NCBI RefSeq assembly: GCF_001653235.2
Contig: NC_035792.1
Coordinates: forward strand, 5,084,001 to 5,148,000
Direction: 5' to 3'
DNA: 64,000 nt
Origin: Pochonia chlamydosporia 170
Taxonomy: Eukaryota; Ascomycota; Sordariomycetes; Hypocreales; Clavicipitaceae
The notes beneath the pieces were generated by a model. That model saw only the letters and a program-made list of their open reading frames with translations. It was not told the DNA's origin and made no database searches. How positions within the stretch are numbered: the first letter of the stretch is position 1; each line of letters opens with the position of its first letter. The translations under genes and the position numbers were made by a program. Shown here piece after piece: positions 43,726 to 63,558 of this stretch.

Positions 43726-44219
43726 CTACAACGCCAATAATCTGGCTGATCGCCTTAATGGCCTTCGGTGTGACACCTCCACGTTTCTGCTTAGAGTCTT
43801 CCCCTCCTGCCCAGGGGTTGCACCAAGGGCATTTGGCCCAGCGTCTACAGAGGCCGGTTCACCGCCAGCAAACAGTCTACCCCATGGCATATGGTGGAAC
43901 ACCCGAAGTTCGAGGTCTTCCGAGTCGGATGGGTCCTGGATGACACTAGGTATCTGCGATATAGTGTTAGGTTGACGGCTCGGGTGGGAATGCGAGGCAT
44001 CGTCCCCATGGGTCTCCACCCGGAGGACTACATGAGAGTTGGCCTTCTGTGGTACCCAAATAGCATGCCAATTTGCGCTGAAATACCTTTTGCCAACAAA
44101 AGTTTTCATATGAAATCGCATATGAAGCCTGAGCCCTTCGATGTTTGGGGAAAGCGTGACAGCCCGCATCTTATCATCATCTGGGTCATACCATTCGTCT
44201 ATCATGCCCAATTTGTTAG
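43726..44219 (-). pseudogene. Transthyretin-like/RRSARL family paralog 1, 3' part (split by copia element)
   Basis: This is the C-terminal part of a 198-residue protein whose first 34 codons or so lie at 50217-50319. It begins within the GMIDEW block shared with the intact sisters at 51308 and 62938, continues through HMRFHMKTF and IWVPQKANSHVVLRV, and ends HRRPLRRSARLLAL before TAG (rev. 43726-43728). The break is exactly at the copia insertion, with the target duplication GTTAG at 44215-44219. No other damage is seen, so the gene was probably functional until the element landed. Confidence 0.85.
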
Positions 44220-44434
44220 TGTTGGAAGCGCAAGGCTTCTATTCGGGTGATAATTATCACGCGGTTTGGGGTACTCGTAACTGGTTGATTGATGCTTGTT
44301 GAATTCATCTAGCTATAGATAACGTACGCCTGTGTTGGTGTTGAAGCCTGCTCACGTGAGGTCTGTTTCAGCCACTGTTTGAAGCCATTCGCAGGCTACT
44401 GGCTCCGCCGCCAAAGACGGCGGTGGAAGCAACA
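44220..44434 (-). repeat. 3' LTR of copia element
   Basis: 215 bp, TGTTGGAAGC...GGAAGCAACA; both ends carry a short inverted form of TGTTG/CAACA. It matches 49997-50211. Confidence 0.93.
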
Positions 44435-44607
44435 CTGGCAGCTTCTCTCTTTGAGGCCTCAATTCATTCGAAAACAAAATAAAACAAGACACCTGTTGAA
44501 GGCGTACACACTAGAGGCAAATTCCTCTGTTCTGAAGCCAAGTTTTCTTGTATTCTTACCTTGTACCGTGGTGGCTATATCCTAACAATTTGGCCACGGT
44601 AATTCCC

Positions 44608-47103
44608 TCACTTTTCGTCCTTCTTCCTCTCTACCCAGCCTTCCACTCGTATCGCGATCTTATTCTTGTCGATAAGGGTTCTCAACGCGTGATTTGGCGA
44701 TGCTTTCGTCATCGCGTCTGCCGGGTTATCTCCTCCGTTGATCCATCTGACTTCATGGACTTCGCGGCGCTCGTATGACTGTCGGAGAGCCATGATATCT
44801 ATCATGAGCCTCTTCTCTTTGGTTGTGCCGAGCTTAACAAGGCACTCATATAGGGAATACGAGTCCGTGAGAAGGATCGTGGGGATGTCTGGAATTCCCA
44901 GTTGTTTTGTGATGAGCTTTAAAGTCGAGGCTATCGCGTATCCAATGTCTGTGCCTTGAACCATGCTATAAAGCTCAGAGGCTAGGGCACTTCGCGTAAC
45001 TCTCTTTGACTTGGTTGAAGAGTACGTGATGATGTTGCCTTTAACGAGCATTTCGCCATTGTTGGTCTCTTCTTCTGTACCGATGACGATAATGTATCCC
45101 AGCTGGGAACTCAGATCTTCGTTGTTGGCAAAAGAGCCATCAACAAACACAAAAAGCTTTGCTTTATCGAGGTCAAATGGTATACATTTTAGGCCTCTAC
45201 CTGGGTTATCAATCTGCCACTGGATGCGGCGTCCTAGACGTTTAAAGTCATCGCTAGATGGTTCCTTTTGTTGGGCAGCAACTGAAAGGTCAAAGGCTGC
45301 CTCTGGTTGGCAGATACTGGCGAGATATGCGCCGCGGGCTCGTTGCTCAATATATTCCTGATTGGTTGTTGGAATCTGAAGCTTTAAAGCCTGTTCTTTC
45401 TGGGTCATCATGATGCTTCCATCGGCGTTAAGAGAGATTCGGCAGCCATTGAAAGTGAGTGGCTTTTCCACCTTGAGGACTTCCTTTGGCTTTGCTGCAA
45501 AAGCTGCCTTCTGGAGCTCTTCCTCTTCAAGATTAGAGAACTGTTTGTCACTAAGTCCAAGTGTGTCATCGGTTTGCATCCCAATGATACCAAACTTGTC
45601 GCATTCTGAGATCAGCAGGCATGGGTCGTAAGTCGAGGTCGCCATCTTTAGCTTTTCTCGATGGTGGGTGGAATAAGTCGCCCACCAGTGGGTGCCGGCT
45701 TCTGGTATTCCGTATAACGGTTTAACTACTACCATGATGGTGCCTTCTGGGTATCTACCGCGGAGTTGCTCAGGAATCTTTGCGATAATCGTCCTTTGGA
45801 GAGGTGTTTGAGATTGCACATAGGCTTGGGTAATATCCCTTATCCAGAGGATAATTCCTCGTTGGAAGAGAGAGGGCGCGAGTGCAATCATAAGCCGTTG
45901 GCTGGCTCGTTGTATTGTTGGTGATTGCGTCAAAATGAAGGCTTTACCCTCGTCATTATATCCCCGAATGACGAGGCGAGATTTCTCATATGGGGCAGCT
46001 GTATCCTTGCCTTTGACCTCATTAACCATTCGTGAGTCAAAGATGCGAAGTTTAGCATGCTTTATAGGGTCATAAAGCTCAAATTTAAAGACACCTCTGG
46101 CTATCAAGTTATCAATCTCAGTGCGGCCTGAGATTTCAAACGGCTGGCCAGGGGTGATTATGAGTCCTTTACTGCGGAGAAGGACAGCAAGGTCGCGGTC
46201 TCCTTGCTCCTTCGTGGTCAGGAATGCTATTGTTTTGATGCTCTTAAGGAGCTTGGTACGTTCGGGCGGGTCCTCAAGGGCGTTAAAGAAGTACTGTTCT
46301 TCGATAAGGCGTTTACGTGGCCTTCCTGGGCCTCTTCTTGGAAATGTTTGATAAGGAGCTCTTCTGGTCTCTGGGTCTTTACGCGGTCTTCCCGGGCCTC
46401 GTCTTGCTGTTGGGATAGCAACAGCAATGCTATCTCTGATATCTTCGTCCTGGTTAACCTCCCCGTCACTCTCGTTAGCAACCTCAGCATTATCTTGGTT
46501 AACAGCCTGCTGTTGGGGTAGCTTGTTATCCGTTGGGGTTGTATCCTTATCCTCTAGATAGGGTTGTACAATCGTGGAACGGAACTTCGAGGTTATTCCA
46601 GCCTCATTAGCAACGGTGCAGGTCTCGCCTTCAACGGCAATAAGTTCAAAGGGGCCCTGCCACCCGTTCTTTTCTCTCCAAACGCGAACCTTGGATTGCA
46701 ATGGAAGGGTATGTAATGGGGTTGTGTCTGGGCCGTTCCTCGTTAAGAGGGCATTTTGGACCTGCCGCTTAGCGAGGGCTCGTCTGGCTTCACTAGTTGC
46801 CTTACGGATAGCTTCAGCTCTCTGCACGACGCTAAAGCTAGGGGGCGAATCATCCGTCATCCTGGGATAGGCGCCAAAGACTAGAAGTGTTGGGACGAGT
46901 CCGTCTGGGCCAGCTGTATCATTTATAGCTTTTACAGCCATTTGAAGCTTCTGATCGTCGGTCAGAGCGTCGCCAAGTTCTGCGTCAATTATCTGATATG
47001 CACGGCGGAGAGGGCCATGATATCTTTCTGCCTTGCCAATACATATACAGGCCTTTGGCATACTGTTTGAATTCTGCCGAGCTAAAGTTCTTTCCAGCGT
47101 CAT
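44608..47103 (-). CDS. pol: Copia Pol, C-terminal part (integrase end, RT, RNase H)
   Basis: 831 codons, but the natural frame is entered from the upstream ORF near 47050. It starts at the end of the integrase core, with the catalytic-Glu region KAERYHGPLRRAY. Reverse transcriptase follows (RDITQAYVQSQTPLQRTIIA, then PLYGIPEAGTHWW and the active-site QTDD in GMQTDDTLGL, around residue 510). RNase H has FVFVDGSF and LASELYSMVQG, and the C-terminal INGGDNPADAMTK block is typical of copia. QTDD replaces the common YVDD; the two catalytic Asp remain. This half has no stops. Confidence 0.88.
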   Translation of the reverse strand: MTLERTLARQNSNSMPKACICIGKAERYHGPLRRAYQIIDAELGDALTDDQKLQMAVKAINDTAGPDGLVPTLLVFGAYPRMTDDSPPSFSVVQRAEAIRKATSEARRALAKRQVQNALLTRNGPDTTPLHTLPLQSKVRVWREKNGWQGPFELIAVEGETCTVANEAGITSKFRSTIVQPYLEDKDTTPTDNKLPQQQAVNQDNAEVANESDGEVNQDEDIRDSIAVAIPTARRGPGRPRKDPETRRAPYQTFPRRGPGRPRKRLIEEQYFFNALEDPPERTKLLKSIKTIAFLTTKEQGDRDLAVLLRSKGLIITPGQPFEISGRTEIDNLIARGVFKFELYDPIKHAKLRIFDSRMVNEVKGKDTAAPYEKSRLVIRGYNDEGKAFILTQSPTIQRASQRLMIALAPSLFQRGIILWIRDITQAYVQSQTPLQRTIIAKIPEQLRGRYPEGTIMVVVKPLYGIPEAGTHWWATYSTHHREKLKMATSTYDPCLLISECDKFGIIGMQTDDTLGLSDKQFSNLEEEELQKAAFAAKPKEVLKVEKPLTFNGCRISLNADGSIMMTQKEQALKLQIPTTNQEYIEQRARGAYLASICQPEAAFDLSVAAQQKEPSSDDFKRLGRRIQWQIDNPGRGLKCIPFDLDKAKLFVFVDGSFANNEDLSSQLGYIIVIGTEEETNNGEMLVKGNIITYSSTKSKRVTRSALASELYSMVQGTDIGYAIASTLKLITKQLGIPDIPTILLTDSYSLYECLVKLGTTKEKRLMIDIMALRQSYERREVHEVRWINGGDNPADAMTKASPNHALRTLIDKNKIAIRVEGWVERKKDEK

Positions 47104-49651
47104 GAACTATCCATTCGGGAGGCCCAAGGTACGTGTTAATCCAACAGGCCATAATGGCATCCCAAAGATCCCTTGCCTTTTGTTCTTTATTATTAAGAAA
47201 CTTAGCAGCTTGGAAGGCAGTTGCAGAGTCAATAACATGGAGGACTGGTTGGCCATTAATAAAGAAGATGTCCACAATAATCTCATGGTTAAACTCATGA
47301 TCATCTCGAAGGGTGAACTTAAAGCGGCTTGGGGCTCTTCCGTTCATTTGACAATGGTGGCAGATATCAGTCAGTCGCTTAAGAACGTCACTACTATATT
47401 CTTCCCCGACTTTTGTTAAGATTCTTGATAGTCTCTCAACAGACGGGTGTCCAAAGCGGCGATGTAGTTGCCGAAGCTGCGTTTCTGTGAGGTGGAAGGC
47501 TGCGGAAGCTGCTGGCTCGAGGAGCCACCAGGGATGGCCCCATTGCCTGATAACAGGCACAGTGATGTCTCCTTGGATAAGGCGATTGGTGAGATTATCC
47601 AATCGTACATACATCCTATCCATATCTGTGATGGAGAACAGGAAAGGAGTGGCGGTCGGCAGTACATGGAAGGTGATATTTCCGAATACTGTTGGTACTC
47701 TAATGATGCCGATTGATAAGGCTGATCCTGCACCAAAATAGATCGTTGTTGCTGGTGCGTCTTTAATCTTTAGTGACGGCATTATCCTCATTAAGGCTCT
47801 AACCTGTGGCATGCCTGCGTTGGATGTACCGGCGGCGCCGGTATCAGGCAGGATGCCTCTAAAGATATGGTCAGAATATCTTTCCTCAGAGATGAAAATA
47901 GCAGTCTCTTTTGGTTCTTTTATAAAATAGGGATCTTCAGCCAATAGGGCATGCTTGAACGCTTGGTCTCTCAAACCAGCGAGGATTTCCACTGGCTGTG
48001 GAATTGCTGCCGTGGCTAAGAAATTCTGGGTAATAGTACCCGTACTAGCAAACATGTTACTGCTGCCGACAGGGAGGAATTCGTCATTGTCATCATCGTC
48101 ACTGTTGGCATCATTAAAGGAATTCTGTCTATACATTTCGTCAAGGAGGGCGGTATCCTCATCGTTATCTTCACCCTCAAAGGCAGTTAGGAACGCTTGA
48201 TACCTCTTGGCCGTTGGAGGCGTTGGGTGCTTCTTTTGGAGCCAGGAATTTCGAGCTTGGGAGCGTTCTTGGTCGCTATGCTTGGTCGACCAGCAGCCAG
48301 GTTGGCGGCAAACGTAGCACTTCTTCTGGTGGTTCAGGAACTGCCCTTTTTGGTTATAATTTGAGGCGTTTCCTCCACCGCGTTTGAAAGCGCGATCAGT
48401 ATAAAAGACTTCTGCTGGCTGGGGCGTTATTTCCTCGTGGACAGCGATAGCTTGCTGGAGCTCGGCGGCAAGGTCTTCAAAGGTCTTTGCCGGCTTCATT
48501 AACGGCACCTTGCAAGCCGGGGTCTTAGAAGCGGCAATCTTGAGCTTATCCCTCATGCTATTGAAGCCCGTATCACCAGGTCGGAAGAGGCCCTGGTGAA
48601 GCAGTTGTATCTTCTCCGTGAGGATCTCAAGGCAGGATGAGAGACGTTTGTCACGATGTTGGTTGACAATCGCGGCGAGATTAAGGCTTTCCCACTCGCG
48701 GAGGTATCGGTCTCGAATTGCCTCTGTTTCGTACCTCTTTTGGAGGGCGTGGATGAGGTCGTTATAACTTTTTCCTTTGTTAGCTAGATTGTTGAGATAG
48801 TACCGGTATGCTGGTCCTGTGAGCATGACTGGGACGGCCCGAGCGAGCTGGTCTCGCGGATAGTCAATCCGTTTGCATTTATCAATAAACATGTTGACTT
48901 TGGTCAAGAGGAAGTCATATTCTCGGCCTGAGAATTTGTCACTTTCCTGATAGCCTTTGGTGAGGCTGTCTAGGCGTCTGAGTAGGTCAGGGGGCACTTC
49001 ACCGTCTGAGGAAGAAGGTGATCGCCCTTCCCCAGCCAGGGACCCCCATGACTGTGGTGTATTGACCACCGGGGGAGGTGTATCGACGCCTCCAGACGTG
49101 CGAGTTGTGGTAGGTACTGCTGTCTTAGGGGCTATAATGACCTCTGGTTGGGCTGTTTTAGGTCGTTCTCGGGTCGGTGCCGTGACAGGCTTCGTTATTG
49201 ATGGACTCGGTGGGGGTGTGGAGGATCGTGGAGGGCGCTGTGGATCGTTGTCCGGCCATGTGGGGAAGCCCGGAGAAGACACGGCTTCCATAATGGCATT
49301 AACAATTGGGAACCGGTCTTCCTTTCTGATATAGACCCCCTTTGCACGGAGGGTATCGCGGAAGTCACGGAGGTTGGCCTTTCTCGAGCGGTTAAAATGG
49401 CTATGGTTCCAGTCGGCAAAGTCGTCAATAAGGCATTGCCATATATCATGAGGGCTCCGTTTGCGTTCCCAGTAATAGTTGGTAGCCCAGCTAATAGCGT
49501 CATTAACCTTTTTCGCAGTGGGTTTCCTTAGGTCGAAGTTCGAGGGGGTGGTTGGTTCGTCAGGATCATAAAGATCAGGGTCAAAGGGAGGCGGCTCGGT
49601 GATAGTTTCATCGCCTTGGAGGGATAAGGCATCACTATCTTCTTCTGCCAT
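46985..49651 (-). CDS. gag-pol: Copia Gag-Pol, N-terminal part (Gag, protease, integrase start)
   Basis: 888 codons. Gag spans about the first 430 residues, followed by a Cys/His knuckle-like CYVCRQPGCWSTKHS. The aspartic protease site is LPDTGAAGTSN (around residue 600). Integrase starts with an H-H-C-C finger (HRRFGHPSVERL, later CHHCQMNG) and the first two catalytic Asp regions (IIVDIFFING and IVHDAGKNFSS). It then runs out of frame near 47050 and stops at 46985. Comparison with the usual spacing before the E-R-Y-H-G block suggests a small deletion plus frameshift, so a full integrase cannot be made from one frame. Confidence 0.88.
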   Translation of the reverse strand: MAEEDSDALSLQGDETITEPPPFDPDLYDPDEPTTPSNFDLRKPTAKKVNDAISWATNYYWERKRSPHDIWQCLIDDFADWNHSHFNRSRKANLRDFRDTLRAKGVYIRKEDRFPIVNAIMEAVSSPGFPTWPDNDPQRPPRSSTPPPSPSITKPVTAPTRERPKTAQPEVIIAPKTAVPTTTRTSGGVDTPPPVVNTPQSWGSLAGEGRSPSSSDGEVPPDLLRRLDSLTKGYQESDKFSGREYDFLLTKVNMFIDKCKRIDYPRDQLARAVPVMLTGPAYRYYLNNLANKGKSYNDLIHALQKRYETEAIRDRYLREWESLNLAAIVNQHRDKRLSSCLEILTEKIQLLHQGLFRPGDTGFNSMRDKLKIAASKTPACKVPLMKPAKTFEDLAAELQQAIAVHEEITPQPAEVFYTDRAFKRGGGNASNYNQKGQFLNHQKKCYVCRQPGCWSTKHSDQERSQARNSWLQKKHPTPPTAKRYQAFLTAFEGEDNDEDTALLDEMYRQNSFNDANSDDDDNDEFLPVGSSNMFASTGTITQNFLATAAIPQPVEILAGLRDQAFKHALLAEDPYFIKEPKETAIFISEERYSDHIFRGILPDTGAAGTSNAGMPQVRALMRIMPSLKIKDAPATTIYFGAGSALSIGIIRVPTVFGNITFHVLPTATPFLFSITDMDRMYVRLDNLTNRLIQGDITVPVIRQWGHPWWLLEPAASAAFHLTETQLRQLHRRFGHPSVERLSRILTKVGEEYSSDVLKRLTDICHHCQMNGRAPSRFKFTLRDDHEFNHEIIVDIFFINGQPVLHVIDSATAFQAAKFLNNKEQKARDLWDAIMACWINTYLGPPEWIVHDAGKNFSSAEFKQYAKGLYMYWQGRKISWPSPPCISDN

Positions 49652-49996
49652 TGTTATTATTAAAGTGGGAGGCAGGAGGAAGAAGCTTAGGGGTAAATTC
49701 AGGGGTAGGATAGAATTCAGGGTAAGCTGGAGCTTTTTGGTGGTATTTTCCTGGGCGTGGGATCAAAGATCAGCAGTCAAACTAATGACTCATAGGTGAT
49801 GATGTTCCTTTGCAGAAGACGTTTTCTCGTGATGGACGATGAAGGGATTGCTTCGAGGCGCGGCGACAGTACGCAAAAAGCGGCAGCAGCACTCAAAATC
49901 AATTTCCTTTGGATAGCATAGAAAGTCTGCAGTGGTGGCAGAGATCTATCTCTTCTTGGGTTCCTTGCTGTCTGTGGTCTTGCAACCACTGATCAG
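49652..49996 (-). other. Copia 5' leader
   Basis: 345 bp between the gag start and the 5' LTR. The strand complementary to 49975-49996 reads CTGATCAGTGGTTGCAAGAC just after the LTR; TGGTTGCAAG may be the primer-binding site, but the tRNA was not identified. Confidence 0.4.
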
Positions 49997-50211
49997 TGTT
50001 GGAAGCGCAAGGCTTCTATTCGGGTGATAATTATCACGCGGTTTGGGGTACTCGTAACTGGTTGATTGATGCTTGTTGAATTCATCTAGCTATAGATAAC
50101 GTACGCCTGTGTTGGTGTTGAAGCCTGCTCACGTGAGGTCTGTTTCAGCCACTGTTTGAAGCCATTCGCAGGCTACTGGCTCCGCCGCCAAAGACGGCGG
50201 TGGAAGCAACA
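49997..50211 (-). repeat. 5' LTR of copia element
   Basis: 215 bp, matching 44220-44434, next to the second copy of the target duplication GTTAG (50212-50216). Confidence 0.93.
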
Positions 50212-50319
50212 GTTAGAATACCCCTCAAACTGTTGCTGGGGGTATTTTAAACAACTGAGATCCACGAATACGCCTTCAATGGGTTTGTCATCGACAACTA
50301 GCTGGCAGGTGATTGCCAT
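50212..50319 (-). pseudogene. Transthyretin-like/RRSARL family paralog 1, 5' part (split by copia element)
   Basis: The ATG at 50319 starts MAITCQLVVDDKPIEGVFVD and the frame runs to QQQFEGYSN, where it meets the copia LTR. Counting one copy of GTTAG, this part and 43726-44219 add up to 597 nt with an open frame, the same length as paralog 2. Transcription from the native promoter would now read into the element. Confidence 0.85.
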
Positions 50320-51307
50320 CTTGGAATGATAACAATGGGTGGACTGAGGGAATACAGGAATGTGAATGCGGGGAAATCTTGGAACGAGTCTACATTTGGT
50401 CTTGCAAGACTTTATATCTAGTCGACGTATGCAGTCGCATGTAAAATGGACCCAGCTCCTGGATTTAAGTTTTTAGATTCCGGTTACCTGCGTGGCCATC
50501 GGCTAGGAAGCGATCGCCCAGCGGATGAGACCTCGGAACTTGGATTTCGTGTCTTGAATCCAAGATCTAATATCTCATTTTCGCAGGGCACCCGACCATG
50601 ATACATTTTACTTACCAAATACAGGGCGAAGCTGTGTAGCTTTGCCCGGCAATTTACATTACCATAGTCATTGACATTGAGTTATAGCGATGATGACCTG
50701 AAGTGAGAATATTCAGAGAGTTTTACATCGATTACTCTCTACATCGAAGGTTTTGAGCCATGAGGCCCCGTGCGCAGAATCCTCCTGCGGAAATCGCAAA
50801 AGACAGTTGTACACAGCAGCTCTCAACAAGTATACCCTGCTCTATTGAGAACGTCGATGAGAGACTGCACACCGATCTAGGCGCTTTACTGGACTTTGTT
50901 CAATGGGTTCTGTTCGTCATGTAGTGTTTCATTAAGGTGTGTTTACTACCCTACATGACAAACCAAGCTCAGTGGGATGTCTTTCCCAATGAGCCTCTCA
51001 TGAGCCACTGCCTTGCTTTGAGCCGTCTGCACTGAGCAACATATTATTCTTTTACGCAGTTTACCAACTGTCGTACATGTTTGCCGATAAAGAAACTCAT
51101 TCGACATAATGAAAAGCGAACATCAGCATGAATCATATATAAAATTCGTTGGCAAATATTTTGAGCCTCTATTTTTTTTTTTTGCTGTTGTTGTGTAATC
51201 TACCCCTGCATACTATTTGAAAATATTTAGCTGCTCCGATCCATCGACTAGTTCATTTGGTGAATTTCTCAGTGTCTCCATTCAGAGTTGTAAATTGATG
51301 AATACGT
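50320..51307. other. Upstream region of paralog 1, intergenic
   Basis: About 990 bp without a recognised gene. It includes GATCC/AAGATC-type words (50460-50580, e.g. CTTGAATCCAAGATC) and a long T run near 51171. Confidence 0.4.
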
Positions 51308-51904
51308 TCATTGCTTGGCAAGCCTGGCTGAGCGCCTCAACTGCTTGGGCTGCAGCGCGACCCTTTGTGCTTGCCAACGTGCCTCATGACTAACGTCAGC
51401 TGCGGTCCCGCTTTCTTCTAAGCCGTGGGCTCTGTCATAGGGTATGAGTGTGCCAAAGTTGAAGCCCTGTGTCTGCGGACCTGGTAAATTGTTCTTAGAC
51501 TCAGAGGAGGCAAAGATGAACGTCAGATCGCTCAAGCCAGTTCCTGGTGTTTCAACAAGGGAAGCACCGTCTTTGATAGTCGCGTACATGTCTCTATGCA
51601 CAAGGAAAAGAATGTGGGCGTAGCCTCTTTGAGGCAACCTAATTCTGTTCCAGGTCTTTAGGGGCATTTCGCCAAAAACAGGCTGGGCATGAGTACGCAT
51701 TTGCAAATGCGAACCCTGCATGTTTGGAGTGTAACGAATTCTTCGGACTTTTTGGTCGCTAATGCTCATCCATTCGTCTATCATCCCTGACTTGTCAGAT
51801 ATTCCGCTGAAGTGTTGCTCAGGGTACTGTTCGCATTTGAGCTCCACAAAAACGCCTTCAACAGGCTCACCAAAAAGCGTTTTTAGCTGGCAAGAAATGG
51901 CCAT
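51308..51904 (-). CDS. Transthyretin-like/RRSARL family paralog 2
   Basis: 198 aa, single exon. The N-terminal 105 residues (MAISCQLKTLFGEPVEGVFV, then GISDKSGMIDEW and a later VFGEMPLKTWNRI) have the layout of the transthyretin/5-hydroxyisourate-hydrolase fold: a small beta sandwich starting with a G-x-P-x-x-G-V-x-V strand pair, a D-x-x-G-x-I turn and an FGE...P block. The His of the HIU hydrolase start motif is Gln here and the C-terminal YRGS is absent, so enzyme activity is not expected. A linker leads to PKQLRRSARLAKQ, a basic end shared with both paralogs. No signal peptide, so it should be cytosolic or nuclear. The function is unknown. Confidence 0.8.
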   Translation of the reverse strand: MAISCQLKTLFGEPVEGVFVELKCEQYPEQHFSGISDKSGMIDEWMSISDQKVRRIRYTPNMQGSHLQMRTHAQPVFGEMPLKTWNRIRLPQRGYAHILFLVHRDMYATIKDGASLVETPGTGLSDLTFIFASSESKNNLPGPQTQGFNFGTLIPYDRAHGLEESGTAADVSHEARWQAQRVALQPKQLRRSARLAKQ

Positions 51905-52514
51905 TTTGAATAGGTCTGATGGATTGAGTTGATCAAGAGTTCTCTATATTCATCCGGGCACTTAAGTACTTTAATGTGTATGCCAGGAGCTCATGGCAAC
52001 GTTACGTGGTTAGATGCTAAGATCTAAGATGCGAGAACCAGGATCGCGGAACTCAGATACAGCGCTCTTGGGCTTGGTTCCCGCAATTGGCCGATCATCT
52101 CGTCGACACCTCCTCTGTCTACCTTATTGGCCGGGACGCTACTATAGCTCATAAGCCAGAACCGAAAAGCTCGATCTCGGATCCAAAGGCCAAGATCCAG
52201 CGTGTTGAATTCAAGATCCGACATTTTGCAAATTGATATTGCTATAACGCTGGCTGAATTAGCATGAATCTGAGGATTTGCTTACTGATTGTAGCATTGC
52301 GTCTGTTGGTCCCAATTTGCCGTCGCAGAAATCGCCCGCTGCAATTCGCGATCTTAGACCTACAATCCGTGAACAAAGAACTTAGAGTCAGAATGGTGCA
52401 TTTTTGCAGCTGCTGTGCGCACCAAAAGAATGATTTTCGATGACCCTGACTAACTGCCGTAACTCTTTCTACATTCGCACTTCTGAAGACAATCCCAGAG
52501 CAGGCCACAACAAT
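51905..52514. other. Divergent intergenic region
   Basis: Upstream of paralog 2 and of the membrane protein gene. It holds several GATC-type words (AAGATCTAAGATGCGAG near 52020; GGATCCAAAGGCCAAGATCC near 52180). No gene is recognised; open frames at 52024-52224 and 52242-52568 (minus) are unremarkable. Confidence 0.4.
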
Positions 52515-53168
52515 ATGGATCGCAAAAATTCTTTGACAAAGTATGACCAAATGGTGCTTGAGATGCAAGAGAGTATCGGCTTGTGTTACTTTGTTCTCGC
52601 AGGTTTCCTGTCATGGCTTTTGCTGGCGGGCTTTCTGGCTTCGCCAAGCACGTACTCCTCTATTCGTCTCCATGTACTAGATCAGACGGGCGATATCGTC
52701 AAGGTCGTGATGAGCAGTATCCTCAATATCCCACTGCTTTGTATCGCCATATTTCTGTTTGTGGTGGCTATCCTTGGGCTAGTCTGCCTGTGGTGGAAAC
52801 TGCGACAGAATTACATTTGGGTGAACAACCAGATTATTATGTAGGTCACAGTCTCTGAGAAACTTTGAACACGCCTAACCTGATATAGACCCATCGTATC
52901 ACATTCTGCGATGGGTTTTGTTTCCACCTTTGTCAACGTGTACGGTCCGGGGAGAGGAGAGTGGTCCGTTTCTGCAATTATCACAGCGATTGTTACTGGG
53001 TCATTGTTCGCTTGCTCTGTCATAGGTTTTCTGATTTTTAGGTATATCTTGCTACAGCGACTCAAACAAAAACCATGGACTCCATCCACAGGGTACATTG
53101 AAACTTGTCCTGGAGCCCAGATACATGTATACAGAACAGATTTCAGTGACTCGCTCAATTCAAGGTAG
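52515..53168 (+). CDS. Four-helix membrane protein of an ascomycete family
   Basis: Two exons (52515-52840 and 52889-53168), 606 nt, 201 aa; the frame is also open back to ATG 52440. Predicted helices: YFVLAGFLSWLLLAGFLASP, ILNIPLLCIAIFLFVVAILG with VCLWW, a third formed by IVSHSAMGFVSTFVNVY, and IITAIVTGSLFACSVIGFLI. The motifs LAGF with a following P-S-T-Y, Q/N-x-P-LL, LWWKLRQNYIWVNNQI and G-x-WS-x-x-A-I-x-T are those of a common uncharacterised ascomycete membrane protein. Both termini are probably cytoplasmic. It is convergent with the PAQR gene, 143 bp away. No role is known to me. Confidence 0.7.
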
Positions 53169-53311
53169 CAAATTTGCTAGTACGTGGGTGCTTTCTAGAT
53201 GCTCAATAACAACGATAAATACTGCACAAATCCACACCAGGTTTTTTCCAGGTGAGGTTACATCACACCGCGCGACAGTATGCAGCCATCTGTTCATCCG
53301 CCATCCACTGT

Positions 53312-54404
53312 TCATGTACAAGCAACAGTTCCACGCAGTCTAATGATCGCTCCAAAAATCACCAGAATGTGCATCCAGTGGTGGCTTTGTCCCAGCGGAT
53401 CGAATTTTCCCGGGAACCATCTCTCCGGAACCCTCACCATATAGATTGCTCCCCCAAGAGAGTTGACTACCGCCAGAGCGAGGAAAGATCGCAACCCTGC
53501 CGCTTGGTTTAGCATTTCAACAGAGCCAAACAGTTTCCATGCCGGATATAATGGAACAAATAAGCTTGCGCCGAGAAAACAGTATATAAGTGTCCTCAGC
53601 ATGCGGAACTTAGGCAGCCTGAAGCATGATCGTAGCGTCAGCGCAACACACAAGCTAGCAGTAATTGAAAGGGCAACGAAGTAGACCGATCGGAGACCAA
53701 AAGGGGCACAGCGGAGCGCGAAGTGTGTGCAGGAAATTCCTGCACCCCATAAGACGAACACAATACCAACATGATCTAGGTTATTGCTAAATCGATGGAC
53801 AGAACGACTATGGTCAGAAAAGGCGTGGAAGGTGGCGGAGAGAGCGAAGCAAACGGTAACACCAAGACAATAGAGGGAAATCGCAGCGAGGTCGGCATCG
53901 CTGTCCAGGCGTCCAAAAAGAGTATGGCTGAACAGTGAACATCGGCGGTAGACAAGGTAAATGAATTCTAAAAGGAAGTACATTGCCGCAATAAGATGCG
54001 ACCAAACATGCACTGTCATTTCGGAAGAACCTGAACGTCATTTAAATGCCACTTCAAATGATGATGAAAGAATGAGCGCAGGAATTACTTGCCTGTCTCA
54101 TTGTGGACCCCAAAAATACTTGTGAGAGATCTCACAATGGAATAGGATGCACGGCTGACTTGCAAATTAGCTTCGAGCATCTGGGTTTTGCTGAAGAGCC
54201 CTAACCGATATCCAGAAAGAATGTAAACGTTGTCCCTGGAATGCAATTATCAGAGTCAAGTGAATGTTGGATCCGTCTATACTGACACACACCTCTGCCA
54301 CGACGCTATGCATTGACACAATGCCTCTTAGAAGTTGAGTTCGTGAACGTTTTGAGTTTAAACTTACCCGCGTCCGCCGATAAAAGGAGGGCTTCAGTTT
54401 TCAT
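53312..54404 (-). CDS. PAQR/ADIPOR-like (haemolysin III-related) membrane protein
   Basis: Four exons: 54404-54368, 54326-54293, 54235-54093 and 54012-53312; 915 nt, 304 aa. The first residues lead into WQRDNVYILSGYR and VHNETVHVWSHL, the family's entry motifs. Seven hydrophobic helices follow, with the conserved zinc-site residues: Ser and His in LSATFHAFSDHS, Asp in NNLDHVGIVF and the pair in GQSHHWMHI. These match fungal PAQR/Izh proteins, which are linked to sterol, zinc and lipid signalling and may have ceramidase-like activity. The third intron (54013-54092) has a GC-AG boundary (AG/GCAAGT), which is rare but consistent with the reading frame. Exons 1 and 2 are short and less certain. 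Confidence 0.85.
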
Positions 54405-55065
54405 GTTTATTCTCGCGGGAATAGCGCCAAAGAGTTGAGAAGTCGAACGCCTTGCAACCGGCTGGCAGTCGAATTGCGAGTAGTTACTGTGGGTTGTGTT
54501 ATACAAGGAGTATCAAATGATGCTATGTTGACTTACGGGTGTTAATAGCTCATATCCACTTTCTCACTCAGGTGCATCGAGCCACAGGGCGTCTTGTTTG
54601 AAAGTGAGAATGACTGAGAGTATGACGTAACCATGGAATGTTGTCCAAGTTTTTTTTTCTTGAATCTTGTCTCCTGAGTTTTGTATCCCAAATCTTATAT
54701 CTTGAATCTTGTTTCCTGAATCTTGTCTCCGGAATCTTGTACGTACGTCCTGTCTTCGACACACACGACACTTGCTATAGACCATTCGCATGGGCAGGCT
54801 GGTGGACGCTTGTTACGCTGAAGGTGTATTCGACCATCGCGCAATAAGTCACGGACAAGGCCACAAGCTCCAAATTATGAGAATTTAGTTACAAACTCGA
54901 TTATCGCATTCACGCTCAATTACCATCTCTCATACAGAACGGAAACCGGCCAATGTAGTCCCGTCCCAGTAATTTTCACTACGCTGCCAAGTCGTCATCA
55001 AATACCCCTACTTACAGCTTCTGTTTTTTTTTGTTTAACTTTATGTAAGGATGAACTTTGCCCCT
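54405..55065. other. Intergenic with 14-bp repeat
   Basis: Upstream of the PAQR gene and downstream of the CCCH gene. No gene recognised; it contains the array at 54661-54744. Confidence 0.4.
54661..54744. repeat. Tandem 14-bp repeat, consensus TGAATCTTGTCTCC
   Basis: Six head-to-tail imperfect copies with an exact 14-bp period, starting at 54661, 54675, 54689, 54703, 54717 and 54731. The unit resembles the 14-bp unit at 29195-29284 in its core (GA/GG then ATCTT). Confidence 0.75.
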
Positions 55066-56682
55066 TTAATTCGCTTTAAAAGCAGGGTTTTTAACTTTGG
55101 TTCCAGGGGGATGACTTTCTGCAGGGAATTTGCAATAGGGGTACATACACATATTGTCACGGATGCTAGGGCACTATGAAAGCCAAAGTTAGTACGAACC
55201 GAAGTATATCCAGCAAAAATGTATGAGGGAGGAACTCACATGATGCCCATAAATGCATGCATCATATTTACAGTCCTGTCCATCTTTGCATGGCCGCTGG
55301 CGAGCCAATACGGCAATTGCATTAATTTCCTCACTGCTGGGCGAATAATCATGCACAAAAGGGCATAGGTTGCCCTTTGTGCAAGGCCCTCGCAAGAAGT
55401 GAACATTGCAGAGTTTTTTGGAGTCTTTCCTGCCTTTAATGCTGTCCATTACGAGTATACTAGCCTGAATTGGCGCATCCAACCCACGAGGTCCAGGGTT
55501 CCAATCGACCTGCTCAGAAGGATTATCAAGGTTTTGTGGCTTAGAAACCCGAGAAGCGGTGGGTTTTGGAGTTGCTAGAAATGAAATTTCACGCGGAGGA
55601 CTGCCACTTTTGGCTGCGTCCGCGTATGATGATAAACAACCGGGGTTGTTGACTGGTGCAATGCTGGTGTCAGGGCTGGGAGGTTGAAGTCCTGCGGCCC
55701 ATGATCTAGGACGTAAATCATATGGAATTTTCTCAGATAGGTATGTATCACTACAGAAGAGCTGCTTCCCAAGGTCGAGGCTGGGGATATTGGTAGCGAC
55801 TAACTCGGGAACGGTGGAGTTGCCCTCGATCATGGTCATACGACTGCGGCAGAATTCATCTTGGGAGACCTCGTTGAGGAAAGTAGCGTATGAAGGGTCA
55901 TGCGAGATGCCCATGAGAATGTGTCTGCAATTATAATTTTCAAGATGAAACCTGATGTTTTCTGCGATCTTTGTCAAACAAATTGTTACGTTGCCCAATA
56001 CACCGGAAATGCCACGTACCCTTGATCTTAGATGACAAACAACCCTCGCGGGAGCCAACATCAACAAAGTCAAAACTAGACCCGCCTTGGGTAAATCCCA
56101 AAGCGAAGTCTCTCAAATGGCACACGTCACGGCCCAAAGTCTTGGCCAGACCGTCAATGTTTGTTATCACTTTTGCAATTACTTCGACGTCGGAATGTTC
56201 GCCGCACTGCGCGATAATAGCCCCCTGAAGAGCTTTTGCGGCCCTCCTGCCGCCTTCAGCGCCTTTCTTGATCCATTCATCGCGGAACTAACTTCTTTAG
56301 CATTTCTATATTTATAGCTGGACTCAAGCGTGTCTGGAATATTCATACCAGCAAGCCATTTCCGTCAATCGTGACAAAGATATAGGCATTCTGACTCTGG
56401 TTCTGTTGTCTTAGTGTCTTCCCAAAACCTGACTTGGAGCTCATGCGTTCATACCCGTATTTCTTCATTCTCCTTGATGAGCCACTCTGTTTGAGCTTCG
56501 CTGTTCTGTAGCTGAGCATGCAAGTTCCGGTTGTCGCTTTGACATGCCCGTAATTCGTCCATGAGCCGTTGGTTCTGGAACAACATGGCTCTTTCAAGCT
56601 TATCGCAGTATGAGAGGACATCCTTCCTGGTATTGAATTGAATTGAATTTGGTATCGCCTGCTGGCGCCCTTGCGTAGGCAT
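55066..56682 (-). CDS. CCCH zinc-finger protein with coiled-coil N-terminus
   Basis: Five exons: 56682-56455, 56402-56349, 56287-56020, 55961-55240 and 55173-55066; 1380 nt, 459 aa, phases consistent. Residues 15-75 form a coiled coil (KLERAMLFQNQRLMDELRAC). A globular domain follows (NAYIFVTIDGNGLLF, then RDEWIKKGAEGGRRAAKAL and LRDFALGFTQGG), typical of a fungal family that ends in tandem CCCH fingers. The first finger is C-x8-C-x5-C-x3-H (LCNVHFLRGPCTKGNLCPFV with the His next); the second is around RPCKDGQDCKYDACIYGHH. The last exon (CPSIRDNMCMYPYCKF) adds another Cys-rich end. CCCH fingers usually bind RNA, so a role in mRNA handling is likely but not shown. The last intron is inferred from family resemblance. 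Confidence 0.8.
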
Positions 56683-57085
56683 GAGGCGTGCTAGCTAGTC
56701 TTCAACGATGATTACATAATTGCACCTGCCCTGTAAGCCCCGCAGGACGCGACCGATAGAGTCGTCGTGTCCATGCTCTCACGGTAAACCCCTGAACGGT
56801 CTTTCATGCAAATTCCTCCAACTGCAGCAGATGTTCGCCCAATGGCTATTTCTCTGTTAGTATCAATACCCGTCAGCGGGATCTTGATGCCTGCTAAGGT
56901 TTCCCATCCGGTGATGTATTCCCTTGCGGTCAATTGCGCCTGGTCTTTTCGTGGGGACCAGGGAGAGCCCTAACATCGGTGGCATATGCCTCAACAAAGG
57001 GAAAGCGGATTATTTGACGAGTAGCGCTAACTACTCGGGCTGGATACTGTTACAGAGCGCGCCAGGCTTGTACAGCCTACTTGGT
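56683..57085. other. Intergenic, no gene recognised
   Basis: A short minus-strand frame (56712-56933) without recognisable content. It may be further LINE material. Confidence 0.3.
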
Positions 57086-57693
57086 TTAGTAGCGCTTGTT
57101 GATCTTCGTATAATAGAAGTCCGCAACGCGCAGGTAAACCTTATAGGATCTACCGAGGAACTGTCCTATCGCTGCTTCGGGATCGGGTTTCAGCCGAGCC
57201 CGGAGATGGCGAGGAAACTTTCCTGCAGTAGAAGAGATGGGTAGGCGACTTTCGGCGCCCGCAGGGGCACTCCAGGGTCGCCTGGCCTGGGTGAAATCTT
57301 TCGTGGTAGTCCGCAAAGTCACCGTGGTGTGATCGGGCAGCAAGTAGATATCCTAGCAGACGGCGCGGGAGAGTGAGTTCAGGAAGCTTTTGCAGCTTGG
57401 CGGGCAGGCCGAGCGACGAGTAACCTGTTCTCTCTACTCTTTGCCACCACTGCCGGTAGTCTACGGCTATCTGACCCTTAACCTGTCTCCCATCCTTCCT
57501 GGTATTAGCGCTCCAGCAGCGCATACAGGGTATGGAGACTCACCTGAATGAGCTGGGCTGAGAGGCCTCGCTGCTCTTGTATGTACTGGGGCAGCTGGCG
57601 GGATTCAAAAAGGTTTAATTCAATCGACATGTTGTCACGGGCATCATAATAAGGCACACAGAAATTTTCGACGTAAAGCGCTGTTGTAGCCAT
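57086..57693 (-). pseudogene. LINE (Tad1-like) 3' remnant
   Basis: Minus-strand fragments in two frames. One (57150-57524) has LPRRLLGYLLAARSHHGDFA, then DYHERF and CPCGRRKSPTHLFYCR, the Cys-His end typical of fungal non-LTR retrotransposon polyproteins. Another (57086-57343) continues the similarity after a frame change (IGQFLGRSYKVYL). The reverse transcriptase and endonuclease are absent. An old, truncated copy. Confidence 0.6.
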
Positions 57694-58295
57694 GGCCTAC
57701 TGAAAGCTGTGTCGTGACTGGCTAAAATAAAAAGGAAAGCATCTTTAGAGGGCAGCGAGCCTGCGGATGTAGGAGGTTTATAACTTTTGGCTTCTGAGAA
57801 GACAACAAAAATGAGGCGTAAAGCCAGTCACACACATGCACAGCGCAGATTTTGGAAGCAAACTCCAGCGGTACGACGGGATGACCAACTACTTTTTTTT
57901 TTTACGAAAGGGGGATGTGGTTGGCGAGGTCTGATGGTCAGCCCATGGTCAGCCCGTCACCTCATCTGCCTTGCCGCCGCCTGCCTTTCATCGCCCCAAT
58001 CAGAGTCTTATCCCTCCGTCCAGTAATTCGTACCCTTTGGTGACCCACCAAATTCCTCTCGCTTCCAGCACCTCGCCCCAAACACCATGCAACCTCGCAA
58101 CCCAGCGCTTTGCTCAAGCGCCTGGGTCGCAATCCATTCCATTGTCGAGGTCCCGCTGTTGCACGGCCGCTCCAACCCCTGGTTCGGCGTTAAAGTACTC
58201 CCACCCTGATACTCTCCCAGATCTCGCATCCTAAATCTTATCTGCAGTTCGGAACTTGAACATTGCTGAAATAGACAACCCCGTTGCGTAGCGCC
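57694..58295. other. Intergenic, no gene recognised
   Basis: About 600 bp with short frames only, including a T run near 57893. Confidence 0.4.
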
Positions 58296-59159
58296 TCAGC
58301 ATTCAGTGCCTTTCATCGTTTCGTGTACTGGGACTGCCCGCGGTAGGATCCCCAATGGCTGTTCCCAGTTTCCTGGTGGGTTGGGGTAGGTTGGGTTTAG
58401 CCTTGCACTTTCTGCGTGGAGAATACGTTGAGTTACACCTTCCAGCATAACCCAGTTACTGCCCGCATGGACATGATACCAGGACCCCCATTTCCATACA
58501 AGCCCCGAATCTGTCCATGATGGAATAGGGCCGGATTCAGAATGAATTTTTAGAGAGTGCAACTCGTCACCCCGCAAGAGTAAGGCCCGAGTTACATGCT
58601 TCCCGATGGAGGCAAGCCTTTCCGCCGACATTGTAGGAGAAAGTTGTAGGACAACTTGGTGTTGCATACTCTGCCTTTTATAAGCTGTTGGCCGGATGTG
58701 AACAGCTTCAGCAGCTGAAGACAAGCTTTCAACCTCTTGAAGAGGCTGCGAATCGCGTAGATATTTGTATATGTTGGGGGGACATTGTGTAAACCGACCA
58801 CCCACAAAAGCTAGCGGCACAGCGTGTATAGGTTTCGAGTCGGTCTTTCGTTTGGCAGCGAAAAGGTATTCCAAATCGTTTCCGAGCAAAATAAGATCGT
58901 TGATTGAGCGACATTCAACACTACCATTGCGCAGATCGTGAAGTACAGTTTCCAGATCGATACCGGGCTTGAATATACTACCCCACACTCTCGGATGGCA
59001 CATACGCTGTTGCTGCCATTCAGAAAGGTGCCAATGCAGATGCAACCGAGCGACTGCGGCAGAAGTGGGATCCAAGTAATCCGTAATCAGTACCTGAACC
59101 TCAGCTGGTAATTCGGCCCAAGGTAGATGGGACTGCCTGCAACACATGCTGTAAGACAT
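58296..59159 (-). CDS. F-box-like hypothetical protein
   Basis: 287 aa, one frame, no introns seen. Residues 12-40 (LPWAELPAEVQVLITDYLDP, then TSAAVARLHLHW) resemble an F-box: L-P-x-E-v-x-x-x-I-x-x-y-L-d-p. F-box proteins recruit substrates to SCF ubiquitin ligases. The rest has no clear repeats such as LRR or WD40, though a Trp-rich part (LVWKWGSWYHVHAG) stands out. The F-box match is weak and could be chance, so the call is tentative. The start ATG overlaps the beginning of an unrelated plus-strand frame. Confidence 0.5.
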   Translation of the reverse strand: MSYSMCCRQSHLPWAELPAEVQVLITDYLDPTSAAVARLHLHWHLSEWQQQRMCHPRVWGSIFKPGIDLETVLHDLRNGSVECRSINDLILLGNDLEYLFAAKRKTDSKPIHAVPLAFVGGRFTQCPPNIYKYLRDSQPLQEVESLSSAAEAVHIRPTAYKRQSMQHQVVLQLSPTMSAERLASIGKHVTRALLLRGDELHSLKIHSESGPIPSWTDSGLVWKWGSWYHVHAGSNWVMLEGVTQRILHAESARLNPTYPNPPGNWEQPLGILPRAVPVHETMKGTEC

Positions 59160-60834
59160 GACTCAAAAAATAGAGTTCGGAAAGCGGAGTGTAATTAATA
59201 GAATAATCGACTTCGTCAATGAGACTGTACTCCCATGTCTTGATGGGTTGCTGGACAGTTTAGGACTTATTCGAACTGAAGCTGCCACATCCGAGATCCT
59301 GGATCCAAACTTTTGGATACAAGGTTTAAGATCTATTATCTCGAATCTCCCACCAACCTCAGCGTTGTGTTTGCCCTGGGTGGTGATGTATCAGTTTGGC
59401 AACAACCAACAGCTGTACAAGAACTCGTTTCAGGAAATTTTACGGCAAAGTATGTAGCCTTGTTGAGAATGGAACAGCCGTGTCGATCAAGACTACACAG
59501 GCATATATCAGAGATAGATGATGCAATGCCACGTAATTTTGCAACTCTTGTGTCGCGCTACATATAACGTCTAGAGACTGTCCGCCGTACTTTACCTTCC
59601 AGGCTGTCACGATATCTGTTCTAATATCTACAATAATCCAGAGAGTAATCGCGTCACAAAAAGGTGGTGGAGTACCCCAGATTTAGTCCTCATGTTCCCA
59701 TTGTTTCGGATAGTTAAGGACGTGTCTTTCAAGGCGTGACGGGAACCGAAAGATACCTGATCTTACGTTGCGTAATCTTCGGGTGTTTTTTGAATAGCCG
59801 AAGGGTACGATTGTTCCTGAAAAAGCGTTAGTGAACTCGCCTTGACAAGGAGCGCGAATACCATACAACTTGTTCGGCGGATGGCGGAAACGCCGAGTTT
59901 CTAGCTGAGGTGTAAGTGAAGAAGCGATGTTTTCGCCGTATGACAATATGTAAGTCTGCGTCATAGCGGTGGCAAATCCCATTCCCTTTTTTCATCAAAT
60001 TTTCCATGGCTCTTCTAAAATTGTCATTTGTTCTGTCTCTTTTTTGTACATGTTCACCTTCTTTCAACATCTCGAAGTATGGTATTGTTGGCCACCGTTT
60101 GGCGAGTCCCCGGCAATGTAAGTTACTTGCTGGCCAAGCAATCTTCTGCGCTGCTAAAGTGGATGTTCATTGCCTTGATATGTAGGTAAGCCAACAGTAA
60201 TTACAGTGTCGGCTTCCATGAACAAATCAACAAGAGAAAAAAAAGAAACTTAAAAACGGGATCCTGTATGTCAAATCAAAATTTTCAAATCCTGGCATAA
60301 CATTCATGGAGATGCCTATTTTTAGAAGGTACGAAACCTAGTACTAGAATGTCATGCCTTCACAAGAAGAAGCACATTGGCCACATTAATCGGATGAGAA
60401 ACTGAAAGTTCAGAGCGCTATGTTTCAATAGCTTATTCCCAGAATGGCCAGCACCATGATCAATTATCAAACTAACGAGCGTACCTGGGTGAGGCAGCTG
60501 CGACATACGGCCAAAACTCAAGCTCTGCTTGGTGCCCAAAATATGCATGTAGAAAATCCGTACTGGCAGGAAATGTAATTTCCTTCTTCGTCAAGCGGCC
60601 AATTACTCTTTCCCATTGTAGGAGTGGCAGCAATGGTAAAGCAAAAAATTTTGCATTCGGTTGCAAGAGACTGCGGAGGCAAGACTTTTTAAACTACGAC
60701 TTATGGGAGTCGCAAAACCAAGGTGCTTACATGACATAGCGCTATTGGTCATCAAGTTTAAGGTGAAGTCTGGCGGATCATTTAAGCATCACTTGCTTGA
60801 AAAGGTCGTTTACATCTCGCTGCAAGTTCTTGAC
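59160..60834. other. Intergenic, no gene recognised
   Basis: About 1.7 kb. GATCC-type words lie at 59296-59345 (GAGATCCTGGATCCAAAC). Frames at 59158-59567 (plus) and 59683-60070 (minus) have no recognisable features. Confidence 0.4.
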
Positions 60835-61753
60835 TCAGTCAGACTCTGGAGGATTCTGCAAGTCCGAATGCTGTCTCGACTTGTCACGTTTCCATTGACG
60901 GACAATAAGGAAAACCGTGATCATGTAGAGAATGGCGGTCACAGCGAAGCAGAAAACCCACTGAAAAGGGACGAGCCTGATCTTCAGCTGAGCCACTCCA
61001 AGAGCTCCGGACAGAAAGCTGAGGAAATACGTCATGGTGTAATCCTGTTTTCAGTTAGGCTGCCGGTTAATTCACGATGCATGGAAAGGGCAAACCTGAT
61101 ACTCCAACGTAAAGAAAACCCCACAAGCCAATATCCCCCAGATAGATATTTGGCCCACTGCTAGGCATGCGGTAGAAGTCGGGTTTGGAATAATTATCCC
61201 ACCATTCCAGTACATGGCAACGACGGTCCATGACAGAGGACCTGACAGAACAGCTGCATGAAGCAGCCGCCAGCATAGAGAGTGGCGGAAGTAGAGCAGA
61301 CACAAGTTGATAAGGTTCAGTGCTAAGACAATCTCAGCCAATATGAAGAGTGAGTTGACGAATAAGATAACAAATGCAAAATGAAACACATTGTTGAGGA
61401 TGAAATGGCCGTCTATCATCCCAATGCCTATAGGTGACGTTTTATACAAGTCATGGGCTACATGGACGAGTTGGAAAACGAAGAGGCCGGCCCTGCGAGG
61501 TGTGTAAGACGAACATTCCAAAAACGATTTTAAAATAGAATACAAACCAGAATACGTCCCCTAGAATGTGATCCAAAGTGAAAAGTGACGGATGGAGGTA
61601 GCTTATTTCCCATAACTTGTCGTGAAAGTAGACAGAGACAACAGCAGACGAGATCCAAGTGGCGAGGGTCGCTGTTTGTCTTAGAATGCCCAAGGCTTGG
61701 GTATGTACTCCCACAAGCATACGAGCTTTACATGTTAACATATTCAGTATCAC
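60835..61753 (-). CDS. DUF1774-like multi-span membrane protein
   Basis: Three exons: 61753-61548, 61492-61096 and 61044-60835; 813 nt, 270 aa. Six to seven hydrophobic helices: LATWISSAVVSVYF, VFWAGLFVFQLVHVAH, FHFAFVILFVNSLFILAEIV, LINLCLLYF, a segment with SGPLSWTVVAMYWNGG, ISIWGILACGVFF and WVFCFAVTAILYMITVFLIV. The order LDHILGDVFW, GMIDGHFILNNVFHFAFVIL, NLCLLYFRHS and SGPLSWT is that of fungal DUF1774 membrane proteins. The function of that family is unknown. Met 61753 is chosen because the next Met is at 61720; an extra upstream exon cannot be excluded. Confidence 0.7.
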
Positions 61754-62326
61754 GCATCCACATCACAAGTCTGGGCACCTACATTTTTCACTTTCCATGA
61801 TGGGACGAATAGCAATGAGGATGAACCAAAGTTAAACCCGCTCCGAGTATGTGGTGAAGTGTAAAACGAATAAAGTGAGAATGACAGAAATTTTTTGTGG
61901 AAAAGAATCGACTCTGTAAATATATATCTGCCTCGTGGGTGGGGGCCATTCGGCGGCTGCTAGGTAGGTGGCTGGGTGCAGCTGAACGCAACATGCCCCT
62001 ATTTTGCAACCATGCCAATAACCCTAGGCGCCTAGTCAGGTAGTAGATGTCTCCTTACAAGTGATACCCTCCAATCGTATTTGATTACTTCGACACCCTC
62101 TCATTATTTCTAAAATTGAACTTCCCCTTACAAGATTGTGGCTGGATGGCAGAAGCGGTTATCATAACCCATTGGAGTTTGCTTCACCAATCACTAGCGT
62201 TGCCTACGATAACAATTCCTTGAGGATGCAAAACAGCAAAGCGGCTATTAAATATAGAATTCACACCGAACAGATGATGGTCCCACAACTGGCCGCCTTG
62301 ACGTAGAGAACCACGATGGCAGAATC
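61754..62326. other. Intergenic, no gene recognised
   Basis: Upstream region of the DUF1774-like gene and downstream region of the small gene at 62327-62713. A minus-strand frame at 61788-62018 is probably not coding. Confidence 0.35.
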
Positions 62327-62713
62327 TCAGACTGAATTCCGTCGAGGCTTCCCTGTGACAACCCCTGCAGTAATGGTTTTGTCGTTAGAATTTGGCCCTG
62401 GGTTATGACTGTGCTCCTCTTTTGGTGTATTCCAAGGAGTGCATGGAGTGGTTGGCGTGGTGGGCGGTTTCGGGGTCTCAGCAGTGTCGCATTCTTCCAC
62501 ATCCTCATCCCAGTCAGTGAAGCCCAAGAGAGTCAACATCAACTCATTATCCAGGCTCAATCGCTTTACCTCGGCGGCAACTTCTTTAAACGCTGCTTGA
62601 AAGTACCTCAAGTCGCCATACACAGCTCTCAGTGATGTGCCAGTGGTCTCCAAATGCAGTCTGCAGTTGCTGAGCTGCACTCGGAGGACCGTCTCGTCCA
62701 AGCTGTTTGACAT
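62327..62713 (-). CDS. Small hypothetical protein
   Basis: 128 aa. The first 75 residues are helical and could form a short coiled coil (DETVLRVQLSNCRLHLETTG, then FKEVAAEVKRLSLDNELMLT). An acidic GFTDWDEDVEECD stretch leads into a Pro/Thr-rich disordered tail (TPKPPTTPTTPCTPWNTPKE). No family is recognised. The clear division into helical and disordered parts suggests it is a real gene. Confidence 0.5.
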   Translation of the reverse strand: MSNSLDETVLRVQLSNCRLHLETTGTSLRAVYGDLRYFQAAFKEVAAEVKRLSLDNELMLTLLGFTDWDEDVEECDTAETPKPPTTPTTPCTPWNTPKEEHSHNPGPNSNDKTITAGVVTGKPRRNSV

Positions 62714-62937
62714 GATGGCTACGCTTATTGTTGGCCTACCAAAACAGGAGGGAGTATCGGGTTTGTTGTGCTATTTATCTTCTCGTAGAACTTCTACAAA
62801 ATGGCGTGGAGTTAATCCGCTTGACTAAATGAGCAGCCAGTAGAGTTCGCGACTCCGAGCTATTCGCCGAGCAGCATTGGAAAATCTATAATTAACAGCG
62901 CATCAAAAATAACCTAAGTGTACAAAACAAGGAGTAC

Positions 62938-63558
62938 CTATGACTGTGCAAGCCTGGCTGAGCGCCTCAACTGCTCTGGGCGAGGCACACCCCTCTTTCT
63001 TTTTTTAGGTTCTTCTTCTAGCCAAGGGGCTGCATCAATCACATCTGGCCCGGCGCTTACACAGACGGGCTCATTAAATCCAGAGATTCTATCGTATGGA
63101 AGGGGGGTGGTAACGCGAATTTCCACATCACCCGAACCAGGTAGATTGTGGATCGCCCTTGGGCTTCGTGGCCCATGAATAGAAACAGTTTCAGTTCGGA
63201 GTGTCGCCCCATGCAAGATGTCGTCCCTGATGACTGCGTACATGTTCTTGTCAATCTTAATGACAACATGAGAATCTTCTTCCTTTGGTACCCAAAGAGT
63301 ATTCCAGATTTCTGGGAAGTATGTCTCCCCAAAGAAAGGCTGGAGATGAAATCGCATTTGCCAATGCAAGTCTTCGCCCGGGGTGCATGGGACAGACTGG
63401 AGTTCGCGATTGAGAGAGCTAAACCATTCATCTATCATGCCTGACTGGTCGGAATATCCCTCAAAGGAGTTTTGCGGATGCTCCACGCATTTGAACTCCA
63501 CGAATATGCCCTCAATGGGTTGGTCATATAGCGTGCTTAGCTGACAAGAGATCGTCAT
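62938..63558 (-). CDS. Transthyretin-like/RRSARL family paralog 3
   Basis: 206 aa, single exon. MTISCQLSTLYDQPIEGIFV and GYSDQSGMIDEW match paralogs 1 and 2 and give the same transthyretin-like start; FFGETYFPEIWNTLWVP and a V-V-I-K-I strand complete the sandwich. The middle (VEIRVTTPLPYDRISGFNEP) matches the PYDR part of paralog 2. The C-terminus carries a strong nuclear localisation signal, EEPKKRKRGVPRPEQ, followed by LRRSARLAQS. No signal peptide or membrane part. The NLS and RRSARL end suggest a nuclear protein, perhaps chromatin-bound; this is inference. Confidence 0.8.
   Translation of the reverse strand: MTISCQLSTLYDQPIEGIFVEFKCVEHPQNSFEGYSDQSGMIDEWFSSLNRELQSVPCTPGEDLHWQMRFHLQPFFGETYFPEIWNTLWVPKEEDSHVVIKIDKNMYAVIRDDILHGATLRTETVSIHGPRSPRAIHNLPGSGDVEIRVTTPLPYDRISGFNEPVCVSAGPDVIDAAPWLEEEPKKRKRGVPRPEQLRRSARLAQS

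Follow-up and report, generated by a model that had tools for sequence, protein, structure and literature searches.

What does a transthyretin-like domain do when its C-terminus carries a motif best known from nucleosome-binding proteins? Three paralogous genes raise this question, lying on the minus strand of a 64-kb stretch of Pochonia chlamydosporia 170 DNA (hereafter the window, part of the 5.36-Mb contig NC_035792.1 in a 44.2-Mb fungal genome). Each combines an N-terminal domain resembling 5-hydroxyisourate (HIU) hydrolase (HIUase) with a tail reading LRRSARL. Our tentative answer, which we regard as plausible though short of probable, is that the family consists of HIUase paralogues that have given up catalysis and are anchored to nucleosomes.

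Copy C (62938..63558, 206 amino acids) and copy B (51308..51904, 198 amino acids) are intact single-exon open reading frames (ORFs) that match one another far above chance (E 2e-35). In copy C, residues 1−112 make up the transthyretin-like domain, 113−195 a variable linker with the basic stretch KKRKRG, and 196−206 the tail, QLRRSARLAQS (62941..62973, minus strand); the corresponding tail of copy B is QLRRSARLAKQ (51311..51343, minus strand). Copy A is in two pieces, both on the minus strand: a 5′ piece of 36 codons (50212..50319, MAITCQL...FEGYSN) that ends at a retroelement, and a 3′ piece (43726..44217), open across 163 codons, that runs from NKLGMIDEW through LRRSARLLAL (tail at 43729..43758, minus strand). 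With copy C as query, the whole 44.2-Mb genome gave four matches at E ≤0.001, namely the two pieces of copy A, copy B and copy C itself, and no further copies at that threshold. The ORFs and this search agree with the three minus-strand paralogues, one of them split, described in the initial annotation. Of the shared motifs listed there, GMIDEW and LRRSARL are common to all three copies, whereas SCQL holds only for copies B and C and is TCQL in copy A.

The N-terminal approximately 110 residues are homologous to HIUase and transthyretin. Copy C matches the genome's own canonical HIUase over the domain with a BLASTP E-value of 1e-8, scoring 37.7 bits where the best of 2000 shuffled sequences reached 23.5. 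The relatives P0003 (41.2 bits), P0004 (28.1) and P0007 (25.4) and copy B (26.9) also scored above the shuffles; the 3′ piece of copy A, P0002 and P0006 did not. Alignment with hhalign gave an E-value of 5.7e-6, and homology across the whole domain places the family in this superfamily. Against the Pfam transthyretin family (PF00576, cut-off 25.3 bits), P0003 passes with 29.2 bits; copy C stays below at 18.3 bits, and neither copy B nor the pieces of copy A match. At E ≤10, three of the nine members of family set A3 match PF00576. A profile match to a known family, which the initial annotation had named as counting against its reading, is thus only half borne out: a relative passes the cut-off, but the window copies fall short. 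The NCBIfam HIUase model is far below threshold even for P0003 (16.1 bits, cut-off 87.45). The predicted structure of P0003 is a transthyretin-like β-sandwich, with transthyretin or HIUase making up all 50 of the structure matches listed. The sandwich layout first read from the sequence thus stands, and sequence and model together make a transthyretin/HIUase fold for the family well supported. Weak PDB sequence matches of copy C to ribosomal protein L13 (E approx. 0.001) did not recur when the family profile was used as query; the profile found no PDB chain at all at E ≤10. Bacterial HIUases were used to broaden the profile, and that scan confirmed no relative. No hydrophobic N-terminal stretch, of the kind expected for secretion like that of vertebrate transthyretin, was noticed by eye.

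The enzyme signature, by comparison, is mostly gone. Aligned with the fungus's own HIUase, copy C has ISCQ-LS for ITCHVLD, QSGM for DDGR, DSHVVIKI for HYHVPLLL and AVIRDD for TTYRGS. Of the four active-site residues, the His of HYHVP is kept, while the first His, the Arg (which we take to be catalytic) and the Tyr are gone, together with the YRGS end; the initial annotation had noted the missing His start motif and YRGS. In the Salmonella enzyme, H6A, H95A and Y108F are reported to abolish rapid hydrolysis (PMC4324301), and YRGS is reported as kept in the Cryptococcus and Aspergillus HIUases (PMC3646786). Since three of the four residues and the YRGS end are missing, catalysis is unlikely, and its loss is well supported by the alignment. 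The copies further differ from HIUases and transthyretins in a C-terminal region of approximately 90 residues added to the domain.

It is at the end of this added region that the family is most conserved. Mean pairwise identity is 0.51 in the head, 0.34 in the linker (113−195) and 0.60 in the tail (196−206). The tail is present in seven of ten sequences compared (P0002−P0004, P0006−P0009 and the three window copies), and all seven keep R-S-[AV]-R-[LF]: five as LRRSARL, one as LMRSARL (P0007) and one as LRRSVRF (P0009). R-S-x-R is accordingly present in 7/7 tails and RRSxR in 6/7, and in six of the seven the protein stops three residues past the motif. The tail is absent from P0003, P0004 and P0006, perhaps through short contigs or frameshifts.

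HMGN proteins are reported to bind nucleosomes through a core reading RRSARLSA; tardigrade Dsup uses the similar RRSSRLTS, and in the HMGN2 structure the main contacts come from the last two arginines of RRSAR, R23 and R26 (PMC12487698, PMC6773438, PMC12480509). The equivalents of these two anchor arginines are the ones fixed across the family tails. Because RRSARL is a published HMGN/Dsup nucleosome-binding core, the chromatin-linked role suggested in the initial annotation gains support by analogy. The likeness to HMGN extends over the RRSAR core, the two anchors and, in several fungal members, upstream basic residues. The full RRSARLSA is not matched, since the last two positions differ (RRSARLSN in P0002 is closest), and the fungal motif stands at the extreme C-terminus of a protein with a folded domain. 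HMGN proteins themselves are small and disordered, and are described as vertebrate-only in the source papers; with a fungal host and a folded transthyretin-like head, the family is not part of theirs. Dsup likewise carries an HMGN-like motif outside vertebrates and in its C-terminal region, but it is disordered, has a DNA-binding stretch after the motif and, in the descriptions compared, comes without mention of a transthyretin domain. The CENP-C motif also begins RRSxR and shares the R-R-S-x-R acidic-patch anchor; the downstream Tyr-Trp described as contacting H3 is missing from the fungal tails. On the side of the possible target, the host's H2A, the one histone compared, has the acidic-patch residues.

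We suggest the following course of events. A fungal HIU hydrolase would have been duplicated, and the duplicate would have lost the active site, kept the sandwich and gained a basic, presumably disordered C-terminal tail ending in an arginine anchor of the HMGN/Dsup type. The protein would enter the nucleus, where the tail (R-S-x-R, usually RRSARL) would dock on the H2A−H2B acidic patch, leaving the sandwich as a head that may bind some ligand or oligomerize. Were the head to have retained the dimeric or tetrameric state of its relatives, several tails could engage several nucleosomes and the protein could bridge them. This fuller version, in which a purine-catabolic enzyme became a multivalent nucleosome binder through an HMGN-type acidic-patch anchor that evolved independently in a fungal lineage, we consider rather doubtful as a whole. 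If it were true, it would be to our knowledge the first HMGN-like nucleosome-binding module outside animals. The family also adds to vertebrate transthyretin a second case of an HIU hydrolase emptied of its activity and reused, and offers a concrete fungal candidate with a known target surface, together with two natural tail variants that leave both anchor arginines untouched.

Two figures limit the argument from the motif. By our own estimate, roughly half of all proteomes would contain a six-residue match by chance alone, and the coded motif shows no excess in the genome, with 88 sites against 125 in a reversed control. What carries the case is that the motif is conserved among family members and agrees exactly with the anchor positions in the literature; its rarity does not. 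The pattern LRRSARLA gave nine sites (two in the reversed control), exact by eye only in copies B and C, and RRSARLSA gave 12 (five in the control). Among the latter, the exact site is out of frame with a 391-amino-acid ORF that by eye resembles a metal transporter, one site reads RRSARLCA and two identical sites read RRSARFWA. Apart from this out-of-frame site and the three copies, the 88 sites include four more exact LRRSARL, in putative frames of 220, 137, 37 and 124 amino acids, the 137-residue frame stopping at the motif. The motif was not borne out as a common module of the genome. The RRSARLCA site lies in MAPRRSARLCA near the start of a 76-amino-acid ORF (L016 (G000:C4), approx. 4047−4069, minus strand), possibly a second motif protein with the motif at its N-terminus.

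The main competing explanation is that the tail serves solely as a nuclear localization signal of the bipartite KKRKRG...LRRSAR type, in a nuclear, non-enzymatic transthyretin-like protein that makes no nucleosome contact. We think this unlikely, though it deserves to be taken seriously. A basic cluster, KKRKRG (KKRHRG in P0002), does lie seven residues upstream of RRSAR in copy C, P0002 and P0008, and over their final 30 residues the six motif-bearing tails other than that of copy A have a net charge of +2 to +9. That cluster is however missing in copy B and altered in copy A, yet R-S-x-R is fixed, and in our judgement an import signal would be expected to tolerate Lys for Arg and a looser Ser/Ala/Leu. 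Somewhat less likely still is a different job for the tail, such as protein−protein or membrane-surface contact or cytosolic retention, with the head as a binding or scaffold domain. Transthyretin-like folds do serve many roles; the tail, though, is basic and coincides precisely with a nucleosome-binding core already known, which speaks rather for docking on nucleosomes. It seems improbable that the family has an enzymatic role through a rebuilt active site, with a purine-derived or some other compound as its substrate. One His (in HYHVP) and the Cys (in ITCH/ISCQ) are retained, but the losses described above speak against this reading, and canonical HIUase has the Cys too (ITCH), so that of SCQL is probably inherited and not a new nucleophile.

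The age of the copies bears on whether they function at all. Copies B and C differ by 0.45 nonsynonymous (dN) and 1.87 synonymous (dS) substitutions per site (Nei−Gojobori), a dN/dS of approximately 0.24 with dS near saturation; A and C differ by 0.51 and 1.17 (0.56 and 1.06 by YN00, which gave values for one of the three pairs), and dS was not estimable for A−B or for the B−C domain alone. With dS high and dN lower in both pairs, the duplication appears ancient and purifying selection predominates on average, and nothing in the dN/dS of B−C or A−C shows positive selection. The initial picture of rapid evolution is not supported by this comparison, nor is a recent expansion under positive selection. 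The tail stands out at the DNA level as well: the eight codons of QLRRSARL are identical in copies B and C, whereas outside this stretch a conserved residue has the same codon in 36 of 74 cases, and 28 bp around them (51318−51345 and 62948−62975) are identical while other synonymous sites are near saturation, possibly reflecting local gene conversion or a constraint on the DNA itself.

Copy A is interrupted by a long terminal repeat (LTR) element and not by an intron. The 6-kb Ty1/copia-type element (44220..50211, minus strand; LTRs at 44220−44434 and 49997−50211) is flanked by a 5-bp target duplication, CTAAC, and its LTRs are identical across a 217-bp BLAST alignment. Its second ORF matches RVT_2, the Ty1/copia reverse transcriptase (32.4 bits, cut-off 31.6), and its first has a sub-threshold match to gag_pre-integrs. 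Since the LTRs are identical and the 3′ piece of the gene is still open, the insertion appears recent, and since P0006, from another assembly, is insertion-free and by eye near-identical to both pieces of copy A except at the C-terminal end, copy A was probably whole beforehand. A retroelement origin of the three genes is rejected, given the homology of the head to a cellular enzyme, the element in copy A being a later arrival. One broken copy in three, the few relatives and the three tailless sequences in ten could be read as paralogues decaying without function, but this is very improbable given that copies B and C have stayed intact over approximately 200 codons at dS >1, with the low dN/dS noted above.

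Protein searches, which reach only relatives sharing short exact words, found nine proteins in total. Two are the window's own, and the two named ones are both from Metarhizium (M. humberi MHUMG1_08900 and M. anisopliae E5D57_000044); on these matches the family looks lineage-restricted. Among the open-licence literature matches listed, none reports the three-copy family or a fungal motif of HMGN type.

The interval separating copies B and C holds genes for a HlyIII-type membrane protein (53315−54037, minus strand) and a DUF7923/CCCH zinc-finger protein (55192−56112, minus strand). Further away, an NLR-like gene (865−3015, minus strand) has NB-ARC together with DUF7779 and TPR repeats, spread over adjacent reading frames, and an ORF upstream of it (3237−3746) has no Pfam match. 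A second LTR-type retroelement (10507−18566, plus strand) by eye comprises gag-like and pol-like ORFs with a second, partial pol copy downstream, the ORF ends resembling a chromodomain. Another local, diverged pair of paralogues encodes small proteins (40040−40549, minus strand, and 41324−41863, plus strand; 31% identity, E 3e-16) with no Pfam match. A long trinucleotide-like simple repeat (42673−43374) is open in several frames, and a tandem array of approximately 14-bp units (CTTGAATC-like) occupies 54644−54741, with weakly related copies near 50545, 52002 and 58213.
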